Virus record (IMG/VR): IMGVR_UViG_3300045135_001688
Coordinates: 1 to 21,636 of that record
Strand: one strand, 5' to 3'
Origin: a virus
Length of the DNA: 21,636 nt
In this document: positions 1,704-13,652 of the stretch, piece after piece
Position numbering within the stretch: the stretch's first letter is position 1
Layout of the letters: the number at the start of each line of letters is the position of its first letter
Notes under the pieces: generated by a model
Seen by the model: only the letters and a program-made list of their open reading frames with translations
Told to the model about the DNA's origin: nothing
Database searches by the model: none
Made by a program: the position numbers and the translations under genes

Positions 1704-2996
1704 ATGAGTTCAACATATTCAACAAGTTTGAGAATAGAGCTTCAAGCTACTGGTGCAAATTCAGGAACTTGGGGAACTATTACGAACAACAACTTTTCAC
1801 AATCATTAGAATTTGCAATCGCTGGTGTGGTAAATGTTGCATGTGGCGACGCTGCTGTAACAACTTTAACAAATGCAGATGGTCCACAATCACAGGCAAA
1901 TAACCAAGCAAGAAACGCACATATAAGACTTACAGGCGCTCATGGTGCAGTAAGAATAGCTCAGTTTCCAGCTACTCAAAAAGTTTATTTAATTACAAAC
2001 GCTACAACAGATTCAGGATCTTCTGGTCCTTATGCAATGACTTGTCGTTTAGGAGCTTCAGGTAATACAATTTCAATAGCTAACGGCACAACTAGACTTG
2101 TTTCAACAGATGGAACAAACTGGTATGATGTTTTTTCTTTAGCTGGTTCAATAGACCTACAAGGTCAAGAATTAATTTTAGATGCTGATGCAGATACAAG
2201 TTTAACTGCTGATACAGATGACCAAATAGATATTAAAATTGCAAACATTGATGTTGCAAATGTTACTACAGCTAATTCAGGTGATTTAGTAATTACTAAT
2301 GCTGTTCAAGATAAAGATATAGCTTTTAAAGGTGATGATGGCGGAGGAGCCATTACTGCTTTAAGTTTAGATATGTCTGATGCAGGTAAAGCTACCTTTA
2401 ATGGTGTAGTAAACGCTGACGCAGGTGTTACTATCGACAATATTACAATTGATGGAACAGAGATAGATTTATCATCTGGCGATTTAACTTTAGATGTTGC
2501 AGGTGATATTATTTTAGACGCGGGTGGTAACAACTGGTCTTTTAAAAGTGGAGGCACGGAAATAGCTGCCTTTAATAATGCTAGTAATAATTTAGAAATA
2601 GAAACAAAAGTATCTGATGCTGATTTATTAATAAAAGGTAGTGATGGTGGTTCTGGTATTACAGCGTGTACTTTTGATATGTCTGCTGCAGGTAAAGCTA
2701 CGTTTAATGATGATGTAGTTGCATTTTCAGATGAAAGATTAAAAAGTAATATTGAAACTATACCAAATGCACTTGATAAAGTTTTAAAAATGAGAGGTGT
2801 AAATTTCGAAAAGAACGGACACAAGAGCATGGGTGTGATTGCACAAGAGGTACAAAAAATTATTCCTGAAGTTGTTTCAACTGAGATGAAAGACGGAGAG
2901 GAGTATCTTGGAGTTGCATATCCTAATATGGTCGGTGTTCTAATAGAAGCTATAAAGGATTTACAAAATCAAGTTAATGAATTAAAGAAAGGATAA
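1704..2996 (+). CDS. Phage tail fibre/spike with C-terminal S74 self-cleaving chaperone domain
   Basis: 430 aa, AGGAGAT just upstream. The N-terminal third (STSLRIELQATGANSGTWG onward) is the usual tail-attachment style of marine phage fibres. The middle holds Asp/Gly-rich beta modules, including a duplicated unit at about residues 203-233 and 307-335 (each ending DMS-x-AGKATFN). The C-terminus is an intramolecular chaperone of the peptidase S74/endosialidase type: SDERLKSNI with Ser342 and Lys347 as the expected Ser-Lys dyad, then GVIAQEVQKIIPEVV and a terminal helix. In this family the chaperone directs trimer folding and then releases itself by cutting just before the Ser, which here would leave a 341-residue fibre and an 89-residue fragment. 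It probably acts in host recognition; the receptor is unknown. Confidence 0.88.
   Translation: MSSTYSTSLRIELQATGANSGTWGTITNNNFSQSLEFAIAGVVNVACGDAAVTTLTNADGPQSQANNQARNAHIRLTGAHGAVRIAQFPATQKVYLITNATTDSGSSGPYAMTCRLGASGNTISIANGTTRLVSTDGTNWYDVFSLAGSIDLQGQELILDADADTSLTADTDDQIDIKIANIDVANVTTANSGDLVITNAVQDKDIAFKGDDGGGAITALSLDMSDAGKATFNGVVNADAGVTIDNITIDGTEIDLSSGDLTLDVAGDIILDAGGNNWSFKSGGTEIAAFNNASNNLEIETKVSDADLLIKGSDGGSGITACTFDMSAAGKATFNDDVVAFSDERLKSNIETIPNALDKVLKMRGVNFEKNGHKSMGVIAQEVQKIIPEVVSTEMKDGEEYLGVAYPNMVGVLIEAIKDLQNQVNELKKG
2370..2709 (+). repeat. Duplicated module within the tail fibre gene
   Basis: The 34-base segments at 2370-2403 and 2676-2709 differ at only two positions and encode DMSDAGKATFN and DMSAAGKATFN. 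The surrounding residues (FKGDDGGGAIT and IKGSDGGSGIT) are similar too, so the duplicated unit is about 30 residues. It looks like an intragenic duplication of a fibre shaft module. Confidence 0.6.
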
Positions 2997-2999
2997 ATT

Positions 3000-4064
3000 A
3001 TGGCAGTCCCTTCAAGTGGAGCAGTATCAATACAAGATCTTGTAGATGAGTTTGGAGGTTCCGCTCCTCACGCTATGAGTGAATACTACCGTGGAGGTAG
3101 TGAAGTTCCTAACGTTCCAGCTAACAGTGGCGTTCCTACTTCAGGGACACTCGCATTATCAGATTTTTATGGTGCAGTTGACGCTGTATTTATTGTTGGA
3201 ACTGGCGGTACAATAACAACTTCTGGTGATTATAAAATTCATACATTTACAAGTTCAGGAACATTTGAAGTTACTACACTGGGTAATTCAGCAGGTTCTA
3301 ACACTGTGGAATATCTAGTAGTCGCTGGCGGTGGCGGTGGCGGTGCAGATCACGGTGGCGGTGGCGGTGCAGGGGGAATGAGACATAATTTTCCAAGCCC
3401 AGCTACAGGAGGCCTTTCTGTATCAGCTACAACCTATCCTATAACTGTAGGTGGCGGTGGAGCCAATAATAATAACGGAAGAAGCACTGCGAGCCAAGGT
3501 TCTAATGGAGCCAATTCAGTTTTTTCATCAATAACTTCAGCTGGTGGCGGCGGAGGTAATACTTTTAATAATAGAGGTTCAACAGCTAAATCAGGTGGGT
3601 CAGGAGGAGGTTCTTCTCGTCGTGCCCCTGGTGGAGCAGGAAATACCCCTCCAGTAACTCCCTCACAAGGAAACAATGGTGGCACAACTTCCCCACAAGC
3701 ACCTCCTTCAGGAGCGGCAGGTGGCGGTGGTCACGGCGCAGTAGGAGGAGTAAATAGTGGTGCTGTTGGTGGTACTGGCGGCACTGGAACAAATTTATCT
3801 ATTACAGGAAGTTCAGTAGGTTACGCTGGCGGTGGCGCAGGATCAGGTCAAAGCGGCGGTGGTTCTGCACCCCCAATAGGTGGTGGTGGAGTAGGATCAG
3901 GAGGTCCTCCTAGTTCAGGCCCTACATCTACTGCTGGCGCCAATGGAAGAGGTGGCGGTGGCGGTGGAGGTGCAGGAGACGGTGGCGGTGCTCCAGGTCC
4001 AGGCCCTTCTCATGGTAGTTCTGGTGGAGACGGTGTAGTAATAGTTAGGTACAAATATCAATAG
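3000..4064 (+). CDS. Glycine-rich phage tail protein (putative adhesin)
   Basis: 354 aa, starting 3 bases after the fibre stop with AAAGGA as ribosome binding site. Residues 1-60 form a small conserved N-terminal part (SGAVSIQDLVDEFGG ... LALSDFYGA). Then comes a beta entry segment (IHTFTSSGTFEVTT, VEYLVVAGGGGGG), and the rest is a Gly/Ser/Pro-rich stretch ending GDGVVIVRYKYQ. This arrangement is the glycine-rich domain of many marine phage tail proteins. Gly-rich tracts of this sort may pack as polyglycine-II helices, as known for the gp38-type adhesins of T-even-like phages. The position after the S74 fibre suggests a receptor-binding tip. The GGTGGCGGT codon tracts are prone to length changes, which could vary the tip. 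It is also a conceivable substrate for the downstream hydroxylases, which is speculation. Confidence 0.75.
   Translation: MAVPSSGAVSIQDLVDEFGGSAPHAMSEYYRGGSEVPNVPANSGVPTSGTLALSDFYGAVDAVFIVGTGGTITTSGDYKIHTFTSSGTFEVTTLGNSAGSNTVEYLVVAGGGGGGADHGGGGGAGGMRHNFPSPATGGLSVSATTYPITVGGGGANNNNGRSTASQGSNGANSVFSSITSAGGGGGNTFNNRGSTAKSGGSGGGSSRRAPGGAGNTPPVTPSQGNNGGTTSPQAPPSGAAGGGGHGAVGGVNSGAVGGTGGTGTNLSITGSSVGYAGGGAGSGQSGGGSAPPIGGGGVGSGGPPSSGPTSTAGANGRGGGGGGGAGDGGGAPGPGPSHGSSGGDGVVIVRYKYQ
3325..3372 (+). repeat. GGTGGC simple-sequence tracts coding for poly-glycine
   Basis: Two runs of alternating GGT/GGC codons are separated by the codons for Ala-Asp-His. Similar short tracts recur near 3950-3990. Each repeat unit is a multiple of three, so slippage would change tract length without breaking the frame. 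Confidence 0.6.
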
Positions 4065-4072
4065 GATTAAAT

Positions 4073-4543
4073 ATGGCTTATTTTGCTCGTTTAGATGATG
4101 ATAATAATGTTCTAGAAGTTCTTTCAGTTTCTCAGTCTGATGTTGATGCTAATGGTGGCGATTTATCAACTCAAGCTGAACAATGGGTTTCAGACAATAT
4201 AAAATTAGGAACTTATAAACAAACATTTAAAGATGGCTCTCATAGAGGGAAATACGCTGGAATTACAAATATCTATAAATCAGACATAGATAAGTTTGTC
4301 CCTGCACAACCTTGGGATAGTTGGGTTTTAAATAATAATGGGTGGTGGGAACCTCCAATTGCTTTTCCTAATAGTTTTGCTTTACCAACAGATCCAGTTA
4401 AAACCATCACGGTAGATTACACCATTTGGGATGAATCACGTAACACTTTTGTAACTTTAAATTTAGTTCCTGATTTTAGTGTAAGTGATAGTTTTTACTG
4501 GGATGACTCAGCTAATCCAAAAGTGTGGGTTAAAATTACTTAA
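4073..4543 (+). CDS. Tail-associated phage protein, cyanophage/pelagiphage type
   Basis: 156 aa with AGGA 6 bases before the ATG. Its layout matches a hypothetical protein common beside tail fibre genes in marine phages: MAYFARLDDDNNVLEVL-type start, a KYAGI segment, then PAQPWDSWVLNNNGWWEPP. The W-D-S-W and N-G-W-W-E-P-P motif at about residues 82-100 is characteristic. It is probably a small structural or fibre-assembly protein, since its homologs sit in structural modules; no enzymatic motif is visible. It is the last virion gene before the oxygenase run. The function is inferred from context. Confidence 0.65.
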   Translation: MAYFARLDDDNNVLEVLSVSQSDVDANGGDLSTQAEQWVSDNIKLGTYKQTFKDGSHRGKYAGITNIYKSDIDKFVPAQPWDSWVLNNNGWWEPPIAFPNSFALPTDPVKTITVDYTIWDESRNTFVTLNLVPDFSVSDSFYWDDSANPKVWVKIT

Positions 4544-4603: not shown

Positions 4604-5221
4604 GTGAATATTGAAATAGGATATTGGTTGTTCCAAAAAAAACTACCTCATCATATTTGTGATGATATTATTAAGTATGGGCTTTCACAAAAAGAATCTA
4701 TAGCATGGGTAGGGGAAGAAGAAATTCAACCAGAGAATAAAGAAGCAGTCGAGAAAGTACAAACACAAAGAAATTCAAATGTTGTTTGGTTACAACAAAG
4801 ATGGTTATACAGATATATACATCCTTTTATAAGAGATGCAAACCAAGCAGCGGGATGGAACTTTCAATGGGATTTTACTGAATCATGTCAATTTACAAAA
4901 TATAAACTTAATCAATTTTATCATTGGCATTGTGATTCCTTCACTAAACCTTATGATTGTCCTGGAAAACCAGAACATGGAAAAATAAGAAAATTATCAG
5001 CTGTAATATCTTTATCTGATGATGATGAGTATGAAGGTGGAGATTTTCAATTTGATTTTAGAAACTCTGATAAAGGAAAAAATGTTAAAAGTGTTAGAGA
5101 GTTTAGAAAAAAAGGAAGTGTAATTGTTTTCCCTTCTTTTATTTACCATAGAGTTACCCCTGTAACAAAAGGAACACGTTATAGTTTAGTGACTTGGAAT
5201 TTAGGATACCCTTATGTTTAA
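4604..5221 (+). CDS. 2OG-Fe(II) oxygenase, PKHD/prolyl-hydroxylase-like
   Basis: 205 aa with a GTG start. The frame is open back to the previous stop but holds no ATG, so GTG at 4604 is the first usable start; its ribosome binding site is weak. The double-stranded beta-helix core is clear: HWHCD with His109 and Asp111 as metal ligands, then LSAVISLSDDDEYEGGDF, IVFPSFIYHRV with His182 as the third ligand, and Arg192 in TRYSLV for the 2-oxoglutarate carboxylate. This HxD...H...R set and the YEGGDF/FPSFIYHRVTPV wording are those of PKHD-type hydroxylases. The expected reaction is 2-oxoglutarate plus O2-dependent hydroxylation; the substrate is unknown. The next gene starts inside its last codons (8-base overlap), so they are translationally coupled. 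Confidence 0.85.
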   Translation: MNIEIGYWLFQKKLPHHICDDIIKYGLSQKESIAWVGEEEIQPENKEAVEKVQTQRNSNVVWLQQRWLYRYIHPFIRDANQAAGWNFQWDFTESCQFTKYKLNQFYHWHCDSFTKPYDCPGKPEHGKIRKLSAVISLSDDDEYEGGDFQFDFRNSDKGKNVKSVREFRKKGSVIVFPSFIYHRVTPVTKGTRYSLVTWNLGYPYV

Positions 5222-5879
5222 AGATAAAAAATATGCTGTAGTAAAAAAAATGATACCTAAAGAGGTAGCAAATTTTCTTCATCACTATCTTTTAAGAAAA
5301 AGACAAACTGTTAAATTTTTAATGGATAATGACTGGTTTTCTCCGTTTGATCAAACATGGGGATCATGGAATGATGCGCAAATGCCAAATACATATTCTC
5401 ATTATTCTGATATGGCTATGGAAACTTTATTAGAAAGAGTAAAATTCCCTGCAGAGAGATCTACAGGATTAAGATTAGTTGAAACATATTCTTACGTACG
5501 TGTTTACAAACAAGGTGATATTTTACATCGACATAAAGATAGACCTTCTTGTGAAATTTCATGTACTTTAAATCTTGGTGGTGATGAATGGCCTATATAT
5601 TTAGATCCTACTGGACAGTCTAGTGTTTTACACGGAAGCGAGACAACAACAGTTCTTAAATCAAATCCAAATAAAGGAACTAAAATAGTACTTAGACCAG
5701 GAGATGGATTAATTTATAGTGGTTGTGATTTAGAACATTGGAGGGAACCTTTTGATGGATTAGAATGTTCTCAAGTATTTTTACATTACAATAATTTAGA
5801 TGGAAATTTTCAAAATAAAAATAGTTTTGATAATCGTCCTATGTTGGGTCTTCCATCTTCATTTAAAGGAGGTAATTAA
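5214..5879 (+). CDS. 2OG-Fe(II) oxygenase family protein
   Basis: 221 aa, overlapping the preceding hydroxylase gene by 8 bases. The core shows YVRVYKQGDILHRHKDRPSC with His107 and Asp109 as the HxD pair, followed by ISCTLNLGGDEWPIYLD, LRPGDGLIYSG and a distal His175 in CDLEHWREPFDG. Arg177, two residues after the distal His, or a residue in the next strand could bind 2-oxoglutarate. The wording resembles the small 2OG oxygenases often seen in cyanophage genomes. Residues 1-85 contain an HHYLLRKRQ-like helix and are not recognised. It belongs to a different sequence type from both its neighbours, so this run is not a simple tandem duplication. The substrate is unknown. The 3' end encodes the ribosome binding site of the next gene. 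Confidence 0.75.
   Translation: MFKDKKYAVVKKMIPKEVANFLHHYLLRKRQTVKFLMDNDWFSPFDQTWGSWNDAQMPNTYSHYSDMAMETLLERVKFPAERSTGLRLVETYSYVRVYKQGDILHRHKDRPSCEISCTLNLGGDEWPIYLDPTGQSSVLHGSETTTVLKSNPNKGTKIVLRPGDGLIYSGCDLEHWREPFDGLECSQVFLHYNNLDGNFQNKNSFDNRPMLGLPSSFKGGN
5865..5873 (+). promoter_or_regulatory. Perfect Shine-Dalgarno before the degenerate oxygenase
   Basis: AAAGGAGGT lies 5 bases before the ATG at 5879, inside the last codons of the preceding gene. It is the strongest ribosome binding site in the oxygenase run and argues that the downstream protein is made in quantity although its catalytic residues look altered. Confidence 0.75.
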
Positions 5880-6505
5880 TGACCATATATGATGTTTTTC
5901 CCAAAACAATTAAAACCGTGGATTTAGATATTTTAAAAAATAAAAAAACTAAAGAAGATCTTGATAAAATTTTAAAAGAACAAGATTATTTATGGAATAA
6001 TGATTACAGAGAGTATGGTCATTACAGCGGAAATCAATATGTTTTAGATAAACCTGAACTAAAAGATTTAAAAAAAGAAATTGCTTTTAAAGTTCTTGAA
6101 TTTGGAATTAAAGATTATGGCCATGATTTAAAAGCTATTAGGGTAATTTCTTCTTGGACACACGAAGTTGGAACTGATCAATTTATACCAGCTCAAAGAC
6201 ACGCTAATAGTTATATTTCAGGTTGTGTTTATTTAAAAGATGGTCCAACAATATGTTTTACAGATAATGAAGATGGAAATAAAATGTTTAACTTTTCTCC
6301 TTTAATACACCAGCCAGAAAGATTTCCTAGATCGTGGAAAAATTTTTGTATGAAACCAAAAGCTGGAATGCTTATAATGTTTCCCTCTAATTTATTTTAC
6401 GCTATTGAAAAAAACAAATCGAAAGAAGAAAAATATTTTATGTCTTTCAATACATTACCTGTTGGTTCTTTAGGAACGTTTGGAAGTTTATTACATATTA
6501 AGTAA
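5879..6505 (+). CDS. Degenerate 2OG-Fe(II) oxygenase-like protein, metal ligands altered
   Basis: 208 aa; its ATG overlaps the previous stop (TAATG). The C-terminal half aligns by eye with the oxygenases at 6509, 8028 and 12990: RHANSYISGCVYLKDGP corresponds to their HxHxxxxLSGxxYL segment, and GMLIMFPSNLFYAIE to their FPSWLxH segment. The first His of the pair is replaced (Gln106 where paralogs have His; His108 kept), and the distal His is Tyr174 where paralogs have His. The 2-oxoglutarate-binding Arg is Lys185. With two of three expected ligands missing it is probably not a standard Fe/2OG enzyme. It could bind a partner or ligand, or use another chemistry. The fold is inferred from motif spacing; the loss of ligands is directly visible. 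Confidence 0.65.
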   Translation: MTIYDVFPKTIKTVDLDILKNKKTKEDLDKILKEQDYLWNNDYREYGHYSGNQYVLDKPELKDLKKEIAFKVLEFGIKDYGHDLKAIRVISSWTHEVGTDQFIPAQRHANSYISGCVYLKDGPTICFTDNEDGNKMFNFSPLIHQPERFPRSWKNFCMKPKAGMLIMFPSNLFYAIEKNKSKEEKYFMSFNTLPVGSLGTFGSLLHIK

Positions 6506-6508
6506 TAA

Positions 6509-7141
6509 ATGGAGCATCCTGATCCTTTTATAATATCTACTTTTTTTAATGTTTCAAAAAATGGTCGTTTTACTACGCCAGAGTTAAATTTACACAACGG
6601 TGGAAAAATTAGAACATGGTTTCCATTATCGATTTATGAAACTCACACAGTTGATTGGAAAAAAATTCCTGATTATCAAGAAAAAATATTTAAACCTAAC
6701 ATCAATGTTTTTACATCTCCTTTTTTTAATTCTTTGCGTATTAATATTCTTAATCATTCTAAAGAATTTTTAAAACAATTGGGGTACGATGATAATTTTT
6801 GTGACTCTTCATATATTAAAAATATGACTTGTGAAATTACACATAAAGGACATACAGAAAATCGTCATACTCATTCAGAATCTTTGTTAACTGGAGAATA
6901 TTATTTAAAATCACATCCAAACGATAAATTAAGATTTTATCCTTATCAAGATATAAAACCTCTTGTTCATTCTGTTAATGAATTATCATATGAATACGCA
7001 ACATATGAATGCCGTCTTGGAACTTTGTTATTTTTTTTAGGCAGCGCAATACACCAAAGCCTCCCTCAACAAGAGGAGGAAAAAATAACAATTAAATTTA
7101 ATGTTGCGAGTGATCCTATTTTAGATAAATTTATCGAATGA
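6509..7141 (+). CDS. 2OG-Fe(II) oxygenase family protein (HxH...H type)
   Basis: 210 aa, starting 3 bases after the previous stop, without a clear Shine-Dalgarno, which suggests re-initiation. The core has NRHTHSESLLTGEYYL with His120 and His122, then LGTLLFFLGSAIHQS with His182 as the distal ligand. The usual Arg of the last strand is Lys192 in EEKITIKFN. This pattern is that of the putative 2OG oxygenase family whose hallmark is HxHxxSxLSGxYYL followed by FPSxLxH and RxSxSFN. Residues 1-110 include a WFPLSIYE start-like segment typical of the family near residue 38, so the first 35 residues are an extension. Arg-to-Lys raises a question about 2-oxoglutarate affinity. Substrate unknown. The next gene begins within the stop (ATGA). 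Confidence 0.72.
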   Translation: MEHPDPFIISTFFNVSKNGRFTTPELNLHNGGKIRTWFPLSIYETHTVDWKKIPDYQEKIFKPNINVFTSPFFNSLRINILNHSKEFLKQLGYDDNFCDSSYIKNMTCEITHKGHTENRHTHSESLLTGEYYLKSHPNDKLRFYPYQDIKPLVHSVNELSYEYATYECRLGTLLFFLGSAIHQSLPQQEEEKITIKFNVASDPILDKFIE

Positions 7142-7494
7142 TTATAGACATATCTATGAATTACTTATCAAAATTACCTTATGAAGATTCTAATTTTGAA
7201 AATGTAAAAATACATTATGGTAAATTAAAAGCTGTAGCTTTAAAATCTAATGCCTCTGCATTTGTTACTTCTGGTAAAATAACAATTTTTACTATTGAAC
7301 CGCCAGAAGGTGAGAAACGAAATGAAATTGAATTATCATCCCCTAGTGCTGAAATCAAAAACTCTACTGCTAAAACAATATTTTTTATTTTAGATGATTC
7401 ATTTTTAATACCAGAAAAAGACACAGATATAGTGTTTGAGGTAATCAAAGGTATAAAACCTTGTCAAGAAAACAATTATAAAAAGATTACTTGA
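7138..7494 (+). CDS. Unknown 118-aa protein coupled to the oxygenase run
   Basis: The ATG overlaps the stop of the preceding oxygenase gene (ATGA), a sign of translational coupling. The protein is beta-rich, with short alternating hydrophobic strands (KLKAVALKS, KITIFTIEPP, KTIFFILDDSF, DIVFEVIKG), and ends with a charged tail. There is no HxD, no Cys cluster, no signal peptide and no membrane helix. The spacing of strands could suit a small beta-sandwich or a cupin-like barrel, but no ligand residues are visible. I do not recognise it. Its position at the end of four oxygenase-type genes suggests an accessory or substrate role, or simply a structural protein. Confidence 0.5.
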   Translation: MIIDISMNYLSKLPYEDSNFENVKIHYGKLKAVALKSNASAFVTSGKITIFTIEPPEGEKRNEIELSSPSAEIKNSTAKTIFFILDDSFLIPEKDTDIVFEVIKGIKPCQENNYKKIT

Positions 7495-7555
7495 TAATTA
7501 TGACAGACGTGTTTAAATTAGATCTCACCCAAAAATTACAAATCAAGGAGATATT

Positions 7556-7789
7556 ATGGAAAATCAAGAAGTATTGAAGGCTATAGCTACCCTTGCTGAT
7601 AAGGTGAGCAGGTACCACGAACGTTTATTAGCAGTGGAAAGAGACAATGAAAGACTACAGAAAGAATTATTAGAACATAAAAATATACCACACATTCATA
7701 CTGTTGAGGGTAAGCCACATAACTCCAATGCGACTGTTATGGTAACTGGGTTAGATTCTGAAATGGAATGTGAAGCTTGTAGCGCCTAA
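7556..7789 (+). CDS. Small coiled-coil protein with His-rich centre and C-terminal CxxC
   Basis: 77 aa with AAGGAG 8 bases before the ATG. Residues 7-42 form a likely coiled coil (heptad-like LADKVSRYHERLLAVERDNERLQKELL, split over that range). This is followed by His41, His46, His48 and His55 and a short tail with Cys72 and Cys75 (C-E-A-C). The Cys pair plus histidines could bind a metal, though a single CxxC is weak evidence. It has no signal peptide. It is the last gene of the + block and ends directly against the convergent operon. The function is not recognised. Confidence 0.55.
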   Translation: MENQEVLKAIATLADKVSRYHERLLAVERDNERLQKELLEHKNIPHIHTVEGKPHNSNATVMVTGLDSEMECEACSA

Positions 7790-7803
7790 TTACTCAGGCG
7801 TTT
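7783..7803. terminator. Small hairpin at the convergent gene ends
   Basis: CGCCT at 7783-7787 pairs with AGGCG at 7796-7800 around an 8-base loop that holds both stop codons. On the + strand it is followed by TTT. The stem is short (5 bp plus a possible G-U and A-U pair) and the T-run is brief, so it is a weak terminator candidate for the + transcript. On the - strand there is no T-run. Confidence 0.35.
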
Positions 7804-8041
7804 CACCTAACATATCTGCTAAAGAAGGAGCAAATACTTTTACATCTCTTCTTACTTTTTCGACAGTAGTAGATGTACTAGGATTATCAATATCTGCTTG
7901 CATGGCAGCTTCTGATTCATACTCTTGACCTGTATCGATGTTTGTAAGGGTCGTTTCTGTTTTTACTTTGTAATGCGGAATTCTTCTACCATCCTCAGTC
8001 GTAATATGACCTAGTAGTTCAGCAGGTTCAACTATCGGCAT
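7790..8041 (-). CDS. Small conserved marine-phage protein, unknown role
   Basis: 83 aa; GGAG lies 8 bases before the ATG, and the gene overlaps the end of the upstream oxygenase gene by 14 bases. The sequence (LLGHITTEDGRRIPHYKV, TNIDTGQEYESEAAMQADI, VRRDVKVFAPSLADMLG) matches a small hypothetical protein that I recognise as recurrent in uncultured marine phages near structural genes. It is acidic and Thr-rich, without membrane segments or catalytic motifs. It is probably a virion or assembly protein; this rests on context only. It ends the leftward operon. Confidence 0.6.
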   Translation of the reverse strand: MPIVEPAELLGHITTEDGRRIPHYKVKTETTLTNIDTGQEYESEAAMQADIDNPSTSTTVEKVRRDVKVFAPSLADMLGETPE

Positions 8042-8621
8042 CTTCGTTTCTCCAATTTATGTTAAAACTGATGATGACTCTATCTTCATCAGAATTATTT
8101 ATTTGTACTTCATGTTGTAACCAAGATGGGAAAAAAATCAAGGAATTCTCTTTGGGCTCCCATTGTACGCTATGAGCGAGGTGTATAGAGGCTTTTTCTG
8201 TTTTTGGGGGGGATAGTACCTCTGACTGTGGTTTAGGCTCTAGAAACACGATATTTCCACACTTTTTAGGAGCTTTTAAATAAAATACCCCTGATAAGTA
8301 GTTATATGGGTGTGTGTGCACGTTATTTCGTGAACCAGGAGGATTTATCATACCCCACATTCCTGTTATCTCAGGATTGTAATTATCTTGAACATCCATG
8401 TGATTAAAACAATCTTTTGCATATTTAAGAATATCATCAACTAAAGGTTTAAATTTTTTTATATTGTGTATTTCATCATCGCTATGCCAACCACCAATAT
8501 TAGACCGTGGCATACCTTTTTTATCATTCTCTCTTATTTGATAAATGTTGTCGACTAAATGCTCGTGGCCCTTTAATTGTAAAGAAAAAACAGGTGTAAT
8601 AAATAAAGAGTGAAGACTAAT
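8028..8621 (-). CDS. 2OG-Fe(II) oxygenase family protein, non-canonical start
   Basis: About 197 aa if begun at ATT 8621 (or CTG at 8624). The first ATG in frame is at 8513 (161 aa), but the 36 codons upstream read SLHSLFITPVFSLQL ... IRENDKKG, which is the conserved N-terminus of this oxygenase family, and they contain no ATG, GTG or TTG. The likely start lies in TGATT, overlapping the TGA of the upstream gene, with AAAGGA about 8 bases before it. The core has NNVHTHPYNYLSGVFYLKAP (His102 and His104 in the long form), FFPSWLQHEV (His170) and DRVIISFN (Arg181): a complete HxH...H...R set. Alternatively the start ATG was mutated or misassembled (TGATG to TGATT). Substrate unknown. Confidence 0.78.
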   Translation of the reverse strand: MSLHSLFITPVFSLQLKGHEHLVDNIYQIRENDKKGMPRSNIGGWHSDDEIHNIKKFKPLVDDILKYAKDCFNHMDVQDNYNPEITGMWGMINPPGSRNNVHTHPYNYLSGVFYLKAPKKCGNIVFLEPKPQSEVLSPPKTEKASIHLAHSVQWEPKENSLIFFPSWLQHEVQINNSDEDRVIISFNINWRNEDADS

Positions 8622-8983
8622 CAGAGTTGTCCTTTTGTGATCTCCATAAAACTAGCTATAACATGCACTTGATTAGCTGCGTTAGCTTGAACTTTCATAA
8701 CATCACTTTCTTGTAAAACTAATGGTTGTGTTAATAATTCTGTTGTTGTGTTTGTAGCAACACTTTTTGCTTTAAATACTTCAAATGTAGCCGATGATCT
8801 AACAACCTCCACATCTAATAATGTTGTGCTACCTGAATCATTACAAACTAAAATAGATTTTACCACCGCTGTTGTGGGTGGTACGGGAGGTGTTGCGCCA
8901 GCATCGGCTGTTGGCACTGTAATCAAAGTTGTTAGGTCTGTCGTAGTAACATCTAACATTGCGCTTTTAAATGTATTAGCCAA
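8621..8983 (-). CDS. Phage virion-type protein, TTG start
   Basis: 120 aa, beginning at TTG 8983 (MANTFKSAMLDV) with a strong GGAGG 9 bases upstream; no ATG is available nearby. The sequence (LITVPTADAG, AVVKSILVCNDSGSTTLLDVEVV, LQESDVMKVQANAANQVHVIASFMEI) is a beta-sandwich-like protein of a type common in phage structural modules, where it is thought to be a small decorating or tail protein. It overlaps the 55-aa gene upstream by 8 bases, and its stop overlaps the ATT start of the oxygenase downstream, so three genes are tightly coupled. There is no enzymatic motif. Confidence 0.65.
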   Translation of the reverse strand: MANTFKSAMLDVTTTDLTTLITVPTADAGATPPVPPTTAVVKSILVCNDSGSTTLLDVEVVRSSATFEVFKAKSVATNTTTELLTQPLVLQESDVMKVQANAANQVHVIASFMEITKGQL

Positions 8984-9143
8984 GGAAAAATGCCTCCGAT
9001 TCTGATTCTTCTTTTAAGTCTTGTTGAAAATTTGTATTTAATAAAAGAATGATTTGATCTAATAAGTTTACCATCTGATCAAATTGAGTTGCACTATACT
9101 CTGGTGTAGCGTTTGGTAATCTTGTTATATTTATTTTAGCCAT
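8976..9143 (-). CDS. Small 55-aa conserved marine-phage protein
   Basis: Reading the - strand from ATG 9143 to TAA 8976 gives 55 aa that start MAKINITRLPNATPEYSAT and continue QFDQMVNLLDQIILLLNTNF, ending EAFFLG. The amphipathic helix (VNLLDQIILLLN) and the TRLPNATPEYSA start match a tiny protein that I recognise as recurrent upstream of the MANTFK-type protein in marine phages. It fills the gap between the oxygenase and the 120-aa gene and overlaps the latter by 8 bases; its 3' end carries the GGAGG of that gene. Likely a structural or assembly accessory. Function unknown. Confidence 0.65.
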   Translation of the reverse strand: MAKINITRLPNATPEYSATQFDQMVNLLDQIILLLNTNFQQDLKEESESEAFFLG

Positions 9144-9164
9144 TTTTTTATATTAAACTATATT

Positions 9165-9665
9165 TTAACCAGGGAAAAGCACATTTGTGTTAAAAGCAAT
9201 TATTGTTTTTCTGTCTCCCTTTTGTATCGTAGGTGATTTATGAGGCAGGAAAGCAGGGAAACTTAATATATCTCCTTCTTTACAATCAACTTCAAAATTT
9301 TTAAATTGAGTTGAGAACCCTTCTGAACACTCTAAAAAATAAACATTAGAAAAATTAGATCCTACATGTGTATGCCAACTGTGAGCACCACTCTCAGTAT
9401 ATTGTTGAAACCAAAAATTATCAATTTCAACGTTAGGAGCACCCAACTGTGATGCCATATTATCTAAATGTTTTTTTACAGCTTCAAAAAAAATAAATCT
9501 ATATTCCCTATGCATATCTACAGGTAAGTTCCAATCAGTGTGGTATAGTTTACATTTTTCAGTATGTATTGGATTATTAGGAATTAAGTTGATTTGATCT
9601 AAAAGAGTTTTTTTTATTTTGTCATGATTTTCAATATTCGTCTTGAAAATAAAGTTATTCATCAT
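9165..9665 (-). CDS. 2OG-Fe(II) oxygenase family protein (HxH...H...R)
   Basis: 166 aa. Two ATGs lie in tandem (9665 and 9662). GGAG directly abuts the first, so the second may be used; the TGA of the upstream 614-aa gene overlaps them. The core has SGAHSWHTHVGSNFSNVYFLE with His98 and His100, EGDILSFPAFLPHKSP with His142, and DRKTIIAFN with Arg152, a complete set for iron and 2-oxoglutarate. The N-terminal 80 residues differ from the paralogs at 8028 and 12990, so this is a distinct subfamily. It lies directly behind the 614-aa virion gene and is translationally coupled to it. Substrate unknown; virion protein is one possibility. Confidence 0.77.
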   Translation of the reverse strand: MMNNFIFKTNIENHDKIKKTLLDQINLIPNNPIHTEKCKLYHTDWNLPVDMHREYRFIFFEAVKKHLDNMASQLGAPNVEIDNFWFQQYTESGAHSWHTHVGSNFSNVYFLECSEGFSTQFKNFEVDCKEGDILSFPAFLPHKSPTIQKGDRKTIIAFNTNVLFPG

Positions 9666-11506
9666 CTCCTTCCATCAGGTCTAAGTTGTATTTTTGTTGA
9701 TCCAAGTCTCCAAGGTGTATCGTCTACAGTATTTGTTTCATATTTAATTTTCACTGCTCTACCTCTCCCTCTTACATCAATTTTCTCTGTTGTGCTACTG
9801 ATAGTTCCTGATGTAGATACAGTATCTGAGGATTGTGGATATTGTTCCAAGGTTAATGTAGCCGTCATATTATTAGCTAAATTATCAAAATCAGGCACTA
9901 ACTTACTCACAGACATTAATTCATCACCATCTGCAATTTCTACTGAACCTGTTTGTAAGAAGGCAGAAATAGCAGTGCCATCTGCTTGGTTGTTACCAGT
10001 CTCTTGTTCGTAAACATATGAAGCACCAGCAGTTAATCCAAGTATAGTAGATACATTGGCCGTTAAACTAGCATTATACTCTGTAGCTATTGGTAATTCA
10101 TACACATAAGCACCAAGCCACGTGGTTCTACCAAGACTAATCGTGTACCATGTATTCTCTAGATAATTATAAGCAACGCCTCTGTCTATTTGTGTTGCAT
10201 TAGTAGAAGGATAATACCAAATAATTTCGTTAAATGATGTATTGAGTCCTACCGCAATGTCATTCTTGTTGGTATAACTTAAATTATCAAAAACAAAATC
10301 TTGCACCGAACACGGCATTTTTTTGACAACACCATCATACATATAAAACGCATCATCTGACATCCAATAGGCTCTACCATTTACTTCTATTGCCGCATGT
10401 TGTGCTATTAAACCACAGTTTGCACCAAGTTGTCTAAGACCAAAAGTAAACGGCGTGCCGACAAATTGAATACCATGTAGTGATGTATCTGTCCAAACAA
10501 GTATTTGACCTGATGATTTAACAGCCCCCATAATTCTTGAACCATCCGATATACGAAGTGAACCCGCTTCATTTGTTGCTACGGGTGTATAGTCTGTTGC
10601 GTCTTCTCTATCAGAAAATCTAAAAAATAAATCATCTTGCGTTGAAGTGTCTGCTATTGTTGTTTCAGTGCCAAAAATTAATAAATGTCTTGTATCCGTA
10701 GATACCAAACTAAATCTTGAAGCTGTTGGAGCATTAGATAAAGCTGTAGCTCTAACACCTGTTCCACTTGAAGTATCCCAAATAAAAGTGCCACCGTTTA
10801 AAACAGTAGCTATCAAATCTTCACCAAAATTATCTAATGACCATTGACGAGCCGATAAAACAACATTTGAGGAAGATCTAGCAGTTCCCCATGTGCTTGC
10901 GCTCCATGTTTCGGTTCCCCATCCATAGCCATATGTTGACGTGGCAGGTCCTGTGGTTATTTGATACTTAGCATTACCCGATCCTCCACCACCTGATGTA
11001 GAACCAGAAGCGGTATCTGTATGTGTTACGGTGTAAACACTTGCACTTGTTACTGATGTAACTTCAAACTCTTGATTCATATCTAAACCATCTATTGTTG
11101 AAAAAGAATCAAAGGTAACAAAATCACCAACTGCAGCGCCATGCGCAGCATCAGCTACGGACACTGTAGTTGTCCCATTTGTCGTAAAAGGATTTGTCAA
11201 TGAAGCTGTCTCTCTAATTGGTGTAACATCATAAACAGCGCCTTCAGTGTAAATATATAATTTTCTATCAGTGCCTAAAGCAAGATACCTTATTCCATCT
11301 AAGCCAACCCAACTATGTGTATCACGGACCACGCCCACAATCGTTTTGTTTGGATTAGGTAAATAGGACCAACCACCCCATCTTTCAGGTTTTCCATAGT
11401 GAAAACGTACAAAATCTGAATCTGTATATTTTCTTTGATCCCCTGCTGAGTAAGCGGTATCTTGTTTATCAATGCCTGGTTGGAACTTTAAATCTACTAA
11501 TTTCAT
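9662..11506 (-). CDS. Large virion/tail structural protein
   Basis: 614 aa. The opening MKLVDLKFQPGIDKQDT and then YTDSDFVRFHYGKPERWGGW is a recurrent N-terminus of a phage virion protein in marine podovirus-like genomes. Repeated short beta units (GLDGIRYLALGTDRKLYIYT, FGEDLIATVLNGGTFIWD, GQILVWTDTSLHGIQFVG, NEIIWYYPS) suggest a beta-propeller-like body, as in tail hub or DNA-stabilisation proteins of the P22 gp10 kind; this comparison is by style and not established. No membrane segment or enzymatic motif is visible. There is no clear Shine-Dalgarno before ATG 11506. Its stop is shared with the start of the oxygenase behind it. Confidence 0.7.
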   Translation of the reverse strand: MKLVDLKFQPGIDKQDTAYSAGDQRKYTDSDFVRFHYGKPERWGGWSYLPNPNKTIVGVVRDTHSWVGLDGIRYLALGTDRKLYIYTEGAVYDVTPIRETASLTNPFTTNGTTTVSVADAAHGAAVGDFVTFDSFSTIDGLDMNQEFEVTSVTSASVYTVTHTDTASGSTSGGGGSGNAKYQITTGPATSTYGYGWGTETWSASTWGTARSSSNVVLSARQWSLDNFGEDLIATVLNGGTFIWDTSSGTGVRATALSNAPTASRFSLVSTDTRHLLIFGTETTIADTSTQDDLFFRFSDREDATDYTPVATNEAGSLRISDGSRIMGAVKSSGQILVWTDTSLHGIQFVGTPFTFGLRQLGANCGLIAQHAAIEVNGRAYWMSDDAFYMYDGVVKKMPCSVQDFVFDNLSYTNKNDIAVGLNTSFNEIIWYYPSTNATQIDRGVAYNYLENTWYTISLGRTTWLGAYVYELPIATEYNASLTANVSTILGLTAGASYVYEQETGNNQADGTAISAFLQTGSVEIADGDELMSVSKLVPDFDNLANNMTATLTLEQYPQSSDTVSTSGTISSTTEKIDVRGRGRAVKIKYETNTVDDTPWRLGSTKIQLRPDGRR

Positions 11507-11522
11507 GTCGCAGTATACTAAA

Positions 11523-12311
11523 TTATTTATTGTTTTGTGGCAAGAATTGAGTACCTACATTACCTTTAAACGTATAGTTACCATAATGTGTCATGCCGCT
11601 GGCAATATCTGCATATATTTTACCACCTATTTTTTGCCACAGTCTACAAAAAGCGTAGTCTTCTGATAAATATCTTTTGGTGTCTGGCTCTATTATTGTG
11701 TCAAAAAAAGCGTAATTCCACTCGGACGTGTCATGATAATTGAAGGTTTTGTCATGTGGAGCACCGATGTGTTGATCTGGTATAAATTTTAAATTGGGAT
11801 AAGCTAAAGCCATTTTTTTAAATACACCTCTCTTAATTAACATAAATCCTGTAGCACCATCCAATACTTCAATAAAACCTTTTTTAACCATTATTTTTTT
11901 AGGATCTTTAACATTTAAATTATATTGCAACGAAGCTGCGTGTAGTTCGTCTTCTGATATGTTTGGATTTTCCTGTGCTCTTCTTTTCACTTTTGTCCAA
12001 TCAATTGTTTTACGAGGATACACACCTGTCACCACATCCTCATCTAAATCTAACATACGAAATACTGATTCAGGATTAAAAGCAATATCAGCATCAATAA
12101 ATAAAAGATGTGTGTATTGTGGTTCATCCATAAATAATTGCACCAATGTATTACGAGCTCTTGTAATTAATGACTCATTGCCAATTGTGCCAAATTGTAA
12201 TTCTATTTTTTTAGTGGCTGCTAATGCTGTTAGTTGTAAAACGCTTTTAAAATAATCAGCAGTAATCATGCCTCCATAACACGGGGTACCAATAAAAATT
12301 TTATGCGTCAC
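11523..12311 (-). CDS. GT-A type glycosyltransferase
   Basis: 262 aa, GTG start overlapping the end of the upstream small gene by 11 bases. Motifs of a nucleotide-sugar-dependent GT-A fold are visible: IFIGTPCYGG at residues 5-14, GNESLITRARN at 44-54 (a nucleotide-binding style seen in phage enzymes), and FIDADIAFNP at 71-80 with Asp73-x-Asp75 as the DxD that binds the metal and sugar nucleotide. SEDYAFCRLWQKIGGKIY near the C-terminus is a typical acceptor-side acidic motif, followed by THYG. Such proteins are common in cyanophages and other marine phages. Acceptor unknown: virion protein, modified DNA base or host surface glycan. Sitting in the oxygenase operon, it could act on hydroxylated residues (inference). 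Confidence 0.8.
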   Translation of the reverse strand: MTHKIFIGTPCYGGMITADYFKSVLQLTALAATKKIELQFGTIGNESLITRARNTLVQLFMDEPQYTHLLFIDADIAFNPESVFRMLDLDEDVVTGVYPRKTIDWTKVKRRAQENPNISEDELHAASLQYNLNVKDPKKIMVKKGFIEVLDGATGFMLIKRGVFKKMALAYPNLKFIPDQHIGAPHDKTFNYHDTSEWNYAFFDTIIEPDTKRYLSEDYAFCRLWQKIGGKIYADIASGMTHYGNYTFKGNVGTQFLPQNNK

Positions 12312-12576
12312 TATAACTTACTGTTAAATATTCTATTTTCTTTACCCACCCTTTCGGTATGGCAATAGCACCGCCGCCTGATACTTCCTCTTTGTCTTTG
12401 CTATAGGAGCGCATAATAATTATTTTTTCTGGACCATTATGAACCATCCATCCTACTTCTTGACACACGGCTAACGGAGCATCCATCACTTCTTTTATGT
12501 CAAGCCAACCTGTCTCTGTATCACGAGCATCAAACCACGTCACACGAACCATTGGCACTTTATTAATATCAATCAT
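12301..12576 (-). CDS. Small conserved phage protein, unknown role
   Basis: 91 aa; its ATG overlaps the upstream cupin-like gene by 8 bases. The sequence VRVTWFDARDTETGWLDIKEV followed by VGWMVHNGPEKIIIMRSY and IAIPKGWVKKIEYL matches a small hypothetical protein found repeatedly in marine phage genomes. It looks like a compact beta domain, possibly a small barrel; no catalytic residues are apparent. It joins the oxygenases to the glycosyltransferase in one operon. Function not recognised. Confidence 0.6.
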   Translation of the reverse strand: MIDINKVPMVRVTWFDARDTETGWLDIKEVMDAPLAVCQEVGWMVHNGPEKIIIMRSYSKDKEEVSGGGAIAIPKGWVKKIEYLTVSYSDA

Positions 12577-12997
12577 AGCTCATAGATATGCCAACTCTTG
12601 GACATAAAGGTATTACATTGTGTTTAATTCCCTTTGGAATAAATAACAAATCACCAGAATTTAAAATTATAATTTTTTCATCTATCATCCATTTTGTCGA
12701 ACCTTGACATTGCCAAAAATAAACATCCATGCTGTCTGTATGCTCTCCAAAAGTCGGTGCTTTAGTGGTCAGATTACAATACAAATGTGCAATTTTTAAG
12801 TCTAAAACATCTAACACTTTTTTTACTCTTGGTAGATAATTAATATCATGGGTAACAAAAAAACCATTAGGCGATGATTCTTTTACAAATAAATTTTTAT
12901 TTTTTGAATTATCATAATCATGTATTGCTTCCTCCCACGTAACAATATCTACATCAAATTTTTCTTTAAGTATGGGAACTTTATTGAAGTTATTCAT
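12569..12997 (-). CDS. Cupin/JmjC-like Fe(II)/2OG dioxygenase
   Basis: 142 aa, overlapping the preceding oxygenase gene by 8 bases. The sequence FGEHTDSMDVYFWQCQGSTK then WMI, followed by ILNSGDLLFIPKGIKHNVIP, is the signature of the cupin-4/JmjC group: His86-x-Asp88 and His126 as metal ligands, the DVYFWQCQGSTKW strand pattern, and GD-x-LFIPKG before the last His. Ribosomal oxygenases and JmjC hydroxylases share this layout and act on proteins. At 142 aa it is a minimal domain, shorter than typical ribosomal oxygenases. A metal-binding cupin of another activity is possible. It is a different family from the HxH-type oxygenases around it, so several kinds of oxygenase were gathered here. Confidence 0.72.
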   Translation of the reverse strand: MNNFNKVPILKEKFDVDIVTWEEAIHDYDNSKNKNLFVKESSPNGFFVTHDINYLPRVKKVLDVLDLKIAHLYCNLTTKAPTFGEHTDSMDVYFWQCQGSTKWMIDEKIIILNSGDLLFIPKGIKHNVIPLCPRVGISMSYD

Positions 12998-13652
12998 TAA
13001 TAGGTTCTTTTTTCTTTAAATGTAAATTAAAAGAAACAGAGCGTCGCTCCTCATTTTGTGTTCTAAATGGATAGACACCATGTGATAACCAAGAAGGAAA
13101 AAGATAAATTGCTCCAACTTCAGGGGTTGCTTGATGTTTATGTCCACTAAAAGTTGCAGCTTGACCACACTGCCAAACTATATCTCCTACACAAGGATAG
13201 TGATCTTCTTTTGCATACTCTTCTTTTAAACTAGGAGGCACACGTAAATAAATTACACCTGATAATTCTCCTTGGTGCACATGAAAAGGATTAAAGTCTC
13301 CAGCCCACTGGCTCACGGCCCACATAGATTCAACAACCATAGAACCTACAAACATAGGCGATATTGTATCCGTGGCTGGAGGTATAGAAATATATTGTTT
13401 TACTATTTGACCAATGGCATCTATCAAAGGTTTGAATTTAGTGCTCCCTAAATCTTCAGTAGGATAACGAACTTCTTGTTTAACGTTACCAGCTAAATTC
13501 ATTGAATGATCATACTCTTTTGATAATTTTTTATCATTTAATAACTCGGTGGCTCTATCATCAAGAATCTTAATTAAATTATCAGGCAATTTACCCTGTA
13601 ATATTGTAGGACCAAAAGGTCTTATAGCGTGAAAATCTACTTTAGTTGACAT
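12990..13652 (-). CDS. 2OG-Fe(II) oxygenase family protein (HxH...H...R)
   Basis: 220 aa, first gene of the leftward operon, with AAAGGA 6 bases before the ATG. The core has NPFHVHQGELSGVIYLRVPP with His124 and His126, then AIYLFPSWLSHGVYPF with His191, and EERRSVSFNL with Arg203/204: the complete hallmark of the putative 2OG oxygenase family with HxHxxxxLSG and FPSWLxH. A roughly 25-residue insertion (KEEYAKEDHYPCVGDIVWQ) separates the two halves. The N-terminus (FGPTILQGKLPDNLIKIL) is the usual start of the family. It is the paralog closest in motif wording to the gene at 8028. Substrate unknown. Confidence 0.8.
   Translation of the reverse strand: MSTKVDFHAIRPFGPTILQGKLPDNLIKILDDRATELLNDKKLSKEYDHSMNLAGNVKQEVRYPTEDLGSTKFKPLIDAIGQIVKQYISIPPATDTISPMFVGSMVVESMWAVSQWAGDFNPFHVHQGELSGVIYLRVPPSLKEEYAKEDHYPCVGDIVWQCGQAATFSGHKHQATPEVGAIYLFPSWLSHGVYPFRTQNEERRSVSFNLHLKKKEPINE

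Follow-up and report, generated by a model that had tools for sequence, protein, structure and literature searches.

Conserved anchors and exchangeable slots in a tail-module array of putative 2-oxoglutarate oxygenases from a marine podovirus-like lineage

Why would a phage keep eight genes of one enzyme fold within 9 kb of its genome? The question is raised by the IMG/VR virus record IMGVR_UViG_3300045135_001688, a linear stretch of 21,636 nucleotides (21.6 kb), called the window here. Eight open reading frames (ORFs) between positions 4604 and 13652, named ox1 to ox8, had been predicted to encode oxygenases of the double-stranded beta-helix fold, dependent on 2-oxoglutarate (2OG), and all eight are found where this original prediction had placed them. 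Comparison with related loci revealed a core of fixed gene order with slots, in which oxygenases come and go one at a time. We consider it close to an even chance (about 0.48) that the array is a late tail-module toolkit of a 'hydroxylate-then-decorate' kind, which would modify tail and fibre proteins of the virion. The genes on which the argument draws are the following.

1704-2996, plus strand: tail fibre with a Peptidase_S74 (intramolecular chaperone) end (PF13884, 59 bits; many tail-fibre PHROGs)
3000-4064, plus strand: glycine-rich fibre-like protein, candidate substrate of ox1/ox2 (PF21722 Gly_rich_2, 58 bits; phrog_2295; 46% Gly over 80 residues)
4073-4543, plus strand: p7759, a phrog_7759 protein accompanying the Gly-rich fibre and oxygenases (PHROG match, recurrence)
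4604-5221, plus strand: ox1, PKHD-type 2OG oxygenase, HxD...H...R (PF13640, 64 bits, 2.4e-17; phrog_61; PiuC-like PDB matches; triad HDHR)
5214-5879, plus strand: ox2, protein of predicted 2OG-oxygenase fold from the marine-phage 'ferrochelatase' family (phrog_2954; no Pfam match; AlphaFold model and structure matches; invariant HxD...HWR)
5879-6505, plus strand: ox3, PF13759 protein without metal ligands, probable pseudoenzyme (54 bits; QHYK at the triad)
6509-7141, plus strand: ox4, PF13759 oxygenase (29 bits), cargo, no close relative found
8028-8513, minus strand: ox5, PF13759 oxygenase (88 bits), conserved anchor; start probably near 8621 (ATT)
8621-8983, minus strand: small conserved tail-module protein, phrog_1276 (PHROG match, conservation)
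9165-9665, minus strand: ox6, PF13759 oxygenase (31 bits), single-gene cargo in the virion-protein/phrog_1276 junction
9662-11506, minus strand: virion 'stabilisation' protein, phrog_3287, with a start/stop overlap with ox6
11523-12311, minus strand: GT-A-fold glycosyltransferase (GT) candidate, phrog_1574 (AlphaFold model, fold matches, invariant residues)
12301-12576, minus strand: conserved 91-aa protein, phrog_25889, the '12301 gene' (PHROG match, conservation)
12569-12997, minus strand: ox7, short JmjC_2/cupin oxygenase (PF08007, 39 bits, 8.4e-10), cargo in the ox8/12301 junction
12990-13652, minus strand: ox8, PF13759 oxygenase (67 bits), conserved anchor

Oxygenase families, metal sites and density

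Seven of the eight proteins score above the Pfam gathering cut-off, five in PF13759 (ox3, ox4, ox5, ox6 and ox8), one in PF13640 (ox1) and one in PF08007 (ox7), while ox2 is assigned by its predicted 2OG-oxygenase fold; Pfam and fold thus bear out both the oxygenase pattern and the proposed split into a PKHD-like type, an HxD type with HWREPF, an HxH type and a cupin/JmjC type. A chemistry based on 2OG, O2 and Fe would follow from this family membership. The alignments contain the metal ligands and the 2OG-binding Arg or Lys for ox1, ox4, ox5, ox6 and ox8, the ligands HTD...H can be read from the sequence of ox7, and altogether seven of the eight proteins keep plausible metal ligands, so that the prediction has withstood its own refuting case, a metal site missing from most members. 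The arrangement H-x-H/D...H...R/K is retained in nearly all of 390 aligned PF13640/PF13759-type sequences. With 142 aa, compared to about 370-410 aa in the matched ROX structures, ox7 is not a full-length multi-domain ribosomal oxygenase of the YcfD/ROX type, although it reaches 38.7 bits with the JmjC_2 profile at a cut-off of 22.

In ox5 and ox8 the residues HHHR are present in every aligned ortholog (55 of 55 and 68 of 68, respectively), and the ratios of nonsynonymous to synonymous substitution rates (dN/dS) of 0.10 and 0.13 are close to those of the virion genes (0.09-0.13), which points to strong purifying selection on both. The PF13759 structures 3bvc and 2rg4, bacterial proteins without assigned function, are of the same family as ox5 (E 1.7e-14). 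The reading frame of ox5 on the minus strand stays open and conserved upstream of 8513 up to the phrog_1276 stop (8513-8621), and where relatives have Met the window has Ile, suggesting that ox5 probably begins near 8621 at a non-ATG codon, ATT; about half of the orthologs have a similarly short ORF.

That every member is active can no longer be maintained, since ox3 has lost the metal-ligand triad: despite its PF13759 score, it reads Q-x-H...Y...K. Its only ortholog, in the related locus L094 (88% identical), carries the identical ligand loss at a dN/dS of 0.14 (a single pair), and ox3 is therefore probably a pseudoenzyme still under selection. Another possible pseudoenzyme is represented by a second oxygenase cluster, whose site is likewise degenerate (H-x-H...F...F; L123:9042-9662, L136:9877-10497 and L035:9468-10088, minus strand).

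The density of these genes is not due to chance. Two long relatives, of 60 and 49 kb, have all eight of their oxygenases inside the tail module, in a stretch of 9.1-9.5 kb (p<=1.5e-5 and 7.5e-5, respectively, against uniform placement), and the terminase neighbourhoods of another pelagiphage group contain three oxygenases in 503 kb. The premise that one or two 2OG oxygenases are usual in marine phages was, however, too low: in the passages of the two reports compared here, T4-like cyanophages commonly have one to five, S-SZBM1 nine and S-SCSM1 24 (PMC9602691, PMC9146016).

Core genes, slots and cargo

Among sequenced phage records, no close DNA relative of the window was found. The virion protein shares 40-45% identity with the counterparts in HTVC023P, HTVC027P, 023Pt_psg01 and DSL-LC04, and the two longer relatives (60 and 49 kb) have 11-18 genes in common with these phages at about 40% identity, as counted against the fetched parts of their genomes; together this places the window, a genome fragment, in a marine podovirus-like lineage with distant kinship to the HTVC023P-type pelagiphages. 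In the isolates HTVC023P, HTVC027P, HTVC033P and 023Pt_psg01 oxygenases likewise lie beside tail genes, three of them in the HTVC033P locus.

The genes of the window were compared by tblastn with 141 loci, and 47 independent loci were used for the analysis of slots. The order ox8, 12301 gene, GT-A gene, virion protein, phrog_1276, ox5 is fixed across loci, with ox5 and ox8 as anchors that flank the GT-A gene and two virion or tail-module genes and are retained by most loci. It is in the junctions between core genes, and in the space beyond ox5 up to the fibre genes, that oxygenases singly come and go or replace one another, and neighbouring genes join at overlapping start and stop codons. An empty junction between the virion protein and phrog_1276 measures 163 bp, and one oxygenase extends it to about 590-680 bp (682 bp in the window, with ox6); some of these junctions are longer and hold other cargo. 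The absence of ox6 and ox7 in relatives is gene-precise, window position 9660 joining 9144 and 12972 joining 12576, respectively, and the 12301/GT junction, empty in the window, holds one or more genes in relatives. Dozens of contigs repeat the gene order found around the anchors, which rules out a chimeric assembly; the expected conservation of the cluster holds for this architecture, whereas the exact content varies, and no orthologs of ox4 and ox7 were seen at an identity of at least 45% in the cluster analysis.

Iterated hidden Markov models (HMMs) of our own identified 1 to 10 oxygenases per 9 kb among the loci and eight in the window, falling into 90 clusters at 45% identity. The motif H-x-[DHE]...H...[RK] is present in 904 of 932 oxygenase calls compared to 47 of 700 other ORFs, which argues against drift of the profiles, and in the commonest cargo cluster without Pfam match HxD...H...R is invariant. 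Of the 90 cluster representatives, 48 match PF13640 and 40 PF13759, two sets that may overlap. Profile-profile comparison of the cluster alignments with hhalign gave no informative result, not even for ox2, which had been confirmed by structure prediction, and a PDB search with a protein of cargo cluster 5 returned nothing. Oxygenases make up 168 of 262 cargo ORFs; the others include a Nod-type carbamoyltransferase (Carbam_trans), Sulfotransfer, a weak GT9-like gene, DUF6445 and DUF6065 (phrog_7084), the last being the commonest non-oxygenase cargo with 21 copies (L039:6066-6848 and similar loci). An ORF of 118 aa without family match (window 7138-7494) recurs near variable oxygenases in several relatives.

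Exchange between lineages is apparent at two places. A sister lineage has a gene 81% identical to ox6 directly after the virion protein, in the same junction, whereas its virion protein and GT gene are only 57% and 44% identical to those of the window, a discrepancy that points to horizontal transfer of ox6 into the same junction. In L094 a block consisting of the Gly-rich fibre, p7759, ox1, ox2 and ox3 (84-93% identical to the window) is placed upstream of the GT gene on the same strand, whereas in the window it lies beyond ox5. ox7 and the 12301 gene have a similar 5' coding start of about 26 bp (...AATAAAGT.CC..., window 12560-12580 and 12970-12997), and this imperfect repeat at the boundary of the ox7 cassette could guide insertion.

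The core gene at 11523-12311 falls below the cut-off of the Pfam GT8 and GT2 profiles. Its AlphaFold model (predicted local distance difference test, pLDDT, 78.7) adopts a GT-A fold with Z scores of 12-18 to GT-A proteins, led by STIV A197 (Z 18.1) and the GT-like domain of human LH3 (Z 16.9) and followed by Mnn9, mimivirus R699 and ColGalT1; D73xD75 (DxD), E217, D218 and H242 are invariant.

The family labelled ferrochelatase

The ox2 family was found by tblastn in 156 phage records, many of them annotated as ferrochelatase, and includes HTVC023P gp67, HTVC033P gp58 and S-PM2p234. The latter is T4-GC615, which appeared in a 2010 list under the name 'Hyp. with ferrochetalase domain' (PMC3037559). 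Identity with ferrochelatase (HemH) is rejected: ox2 has no match to the ferrochelatase profiles of Pfam and NCBIfam, nor did the three phage proteins match ferrochelatase in Pfam, and the predicted fold is that of a 2OG oxygenase with invariant HxD...H. In an alignment of 54 sequences, H107, D109, H175, W176 and R177 are invariant. The AlphaFold model (pLDDT 85.9; predicted template-modelling score 0.84) has a bacterial prolyl hydroxylase (P4H), MINA53 and PHD2 as best solved matches in Foldseek, and VIA-align returned SnoN, P3H1, PHD2, P4H and PF13759 structures with Z scores of 14.1-15.6 over about 160-182 residues; as these top matches tie, the substrate cannot be read from them. A PDB search with the ox2 profile gave only weak Tet-like matches (E 0.3-0.6). 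The 'ferrochelatase' of ACG-2014f combines an ox2-like domain and a PF13640 domain in a single fusion protein.

Marine phage 'ferrochelatases', from S-PM2 onward, are therefore predicted to have a 2OG-oxygenase fold, and the co-occurrence of ferrochelatase and 2OG oxygenases described in passages of PMC9599517 and PMC11561400 most likely represents two co-occurring oxygenase families. This removes the basis of the published heme and iron interpretations; our literature search, covering part of the literature, found no earlier correction of the label. Oxygenase-like proteins are also covered by other PHROG names: of the 90 cluster representatives, 48 match 'DNA endonuclease V' and 17 'DNA endonuclease' (PHROG 274 and 2297), and 6, together with one DUF6445 protein, match 'minor coat protein' (phrog_1644). 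These families are probably misnamed, and oxygenase counts based on annotation are therefore too low. A coding sequence of 023Pt_psg01 named DNA endonuclease V is an oxygenase by our HMM and has no Pfam match.

Possible targets and known systems

The anchors resemble virion genes in selection, are bound to the tail module, are co-oriented with the virion and GT-A genes and have exchangeable hydroxylases and transferases on all sides, for which reason tail modification appears the best explanation and host-surface modification the next. During assembly, Fe(II)/2OG enzymes would add hydroxyls to side chains of tail or fibre proteins of the virion, and the glycosyltransferase or, in relatives, carbamoyl- or sulfotransferases would cap some of them. 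With a different enzyme set, the surface that meets the receptor would differ chemically, and this would account for the fast turnover of oxygenases. The dedicated modification programme of the original prediction fits the anchors, the GT-A gene, the tail location and the transferase cargo acting on hydroxyls, but a specific substrate is not supported. A post-translational cassette array, in which a fixed hydroxylase-glycosyltransferase core and exchangeable hydroxylases and capping transferases diversify the chemistry of the tail rather than its sequence, with the conserved pseudoenzyme as scaffold or specificity subunit, is conceivable but doubtful.

Of 56 independent ox2 loci, 49 have a Gly-rich ORF in the flanks that were fetched, and in 46 of these 49 it lies on the same strand; ox2 adjoins another oxygenase in 72 of 80 loci, and the order Gly-rich gene, (p7759), oxygenase, oxygenase, ox2 recurs in other phages. 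Among loci centred on S74 fibres, a Gly-rich ORF accompanies 10 of 10 with ox2 and 16 of 33 without (p=0.003), and within the lineage of the window 4 of 8 and 1 of 21 (p=0.013), tests which are confounded by common location and, in the S74 set, by habitat.

Several further points weigh, like this confounding, against a tail target. The association of Gly-rich ORFs with ox2 is not significant in the set defined by fibre N-termini, and the proline content of fibres does not differ with and without ox2; prolyl hydroxylation of the Gly-rich fibre is therefore not claimed. The LH3 match of the GT-A gene spans LH3 residues 294-519, which we take to be the accessory, non-catalytic GT domain, and the collagen parallel is therefore merely suggestive. 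Cluster sizes and cargo fractions depend on our own iterated HMMs, and some clusters have no Pfam match. The position beside tail genes may reflect a recombination hotspot and not a tail substrate, several of the cargo oxygenases may have targets unrelated to it, and substrates, timing and phenotype, the virion target included, are what we infer.

An unlikely but serious competitor is the modification of host envelope glycans or surface proteins (lipopolysaccharide, S-layer, pili), which would block superinfection or aid the release of progeny and be encoded near fibres because fibre and receptor changes co-evolve. Sulfo-, carbamoyl- and GT9-like (heptosyltransferase-like) cargo normally acts on glycans and small molecules, and 2OG enzymes are able to hydroxylate lipids and sugars; the start/stop overlap with virion genes and the late-module position, however, suggest expression at assembly, late for exclusion, and the anchors track virion genes. 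Gain and loss gene by gene at the junctions and the very high diversity would also suit selfish accretion, oxygenases being moron cargo at permissive junctions without common purpose, but this seems rather improbable given anchors kept in most loci under apparently strong purifying selection and a single fold superfamily dominating the cargo.

The remaining explanations follow roles proposed in passages of earlier papers, in which multiple 2OG oxygenases in phages are linked to nitrogen signalling, DNA repair and iron (PMC9599517, PMC9602691, PMC9146016, PMC3037559). DNA or RNA modification or repair by AlkB- or TET/JBP-like enzymes can appeal to existing 2OG oxygenases with such roles, to the PHROG name 'DNA endonuclease V' for several of these families and to the DNA-repair proposal (PMC9146016); as none of the eight proteins matches TET/JBP (PF12851) or AlkB (PF13532) above cut-off and they are encoded in the tail module rather than near replication genes, it is very unlikely. 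Equally little speaks for metabolic reprogramming, a role suggested for cyanophages (PMC3037559), in which many 2OG oxygenases would reduce the level of 2-oxoglutarate or signal nitrogen status: drawing down a pool needs neither 90 divergent families nor tail-module placement nor swappable slots, and a conserved non-catalytic member would stay unexplained. A heme/iron module, in which oxygenases and ferrochelatase exploit host iron, relies on the annotation of the ox2 family and on the readings in PMC9599517 and PMC11561400, and with the predicted fold, invariant residues and missing profile match of this family its probability becomes almost negligible.

2OG oxygenases are among the commonest unexplained genes of marine phages, and a conserved core with slots offers a testable alternative to generic metabolic roles, namely the modification of virions or surfaces; ox5, ox8, the GT-A gene and ox2 together with the Gly-rich fibre should be prioritised. 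The literature passages compared describe neither the slots nor the two anchors, and relative to them the transferase cargo, the pseudoenzyme and the correction of the ferrochelatase label are likewise new, without priority being claimed.

The collagen pathway (LH3, ColGalT1, mimivirus R699) likewise combines an oxygenase with a GT-A-fold protein, and all three are among the best solved matches of the GT-A gene; here, however, the two functions lie in separate genes, identities are 10-15%, the LH3 segment is possibly non-catalytic, and the resemblance is no more than an analogy. In the related HTVC023P-type pelagiphages several non-orthologous 2OG oxygenases and the ox2 family also lie close together (Wittmers et al. 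2022, PMC9599517); the present loci differ in having up to 10 per 9 kb and in the partner being an oxygenase and not a ferrochelatase, and anchors and slots are not described in the passages of that paper compared here. The cyanophage S-SCSM1, as far as the passages compared describe it, also combines PF13640 and PF13759 proteins in large number without assigned function, but spreads 24 of them over 229 kb (about 0.1 per kb), compared to eight in 9 kb in the window (PMC9602691).

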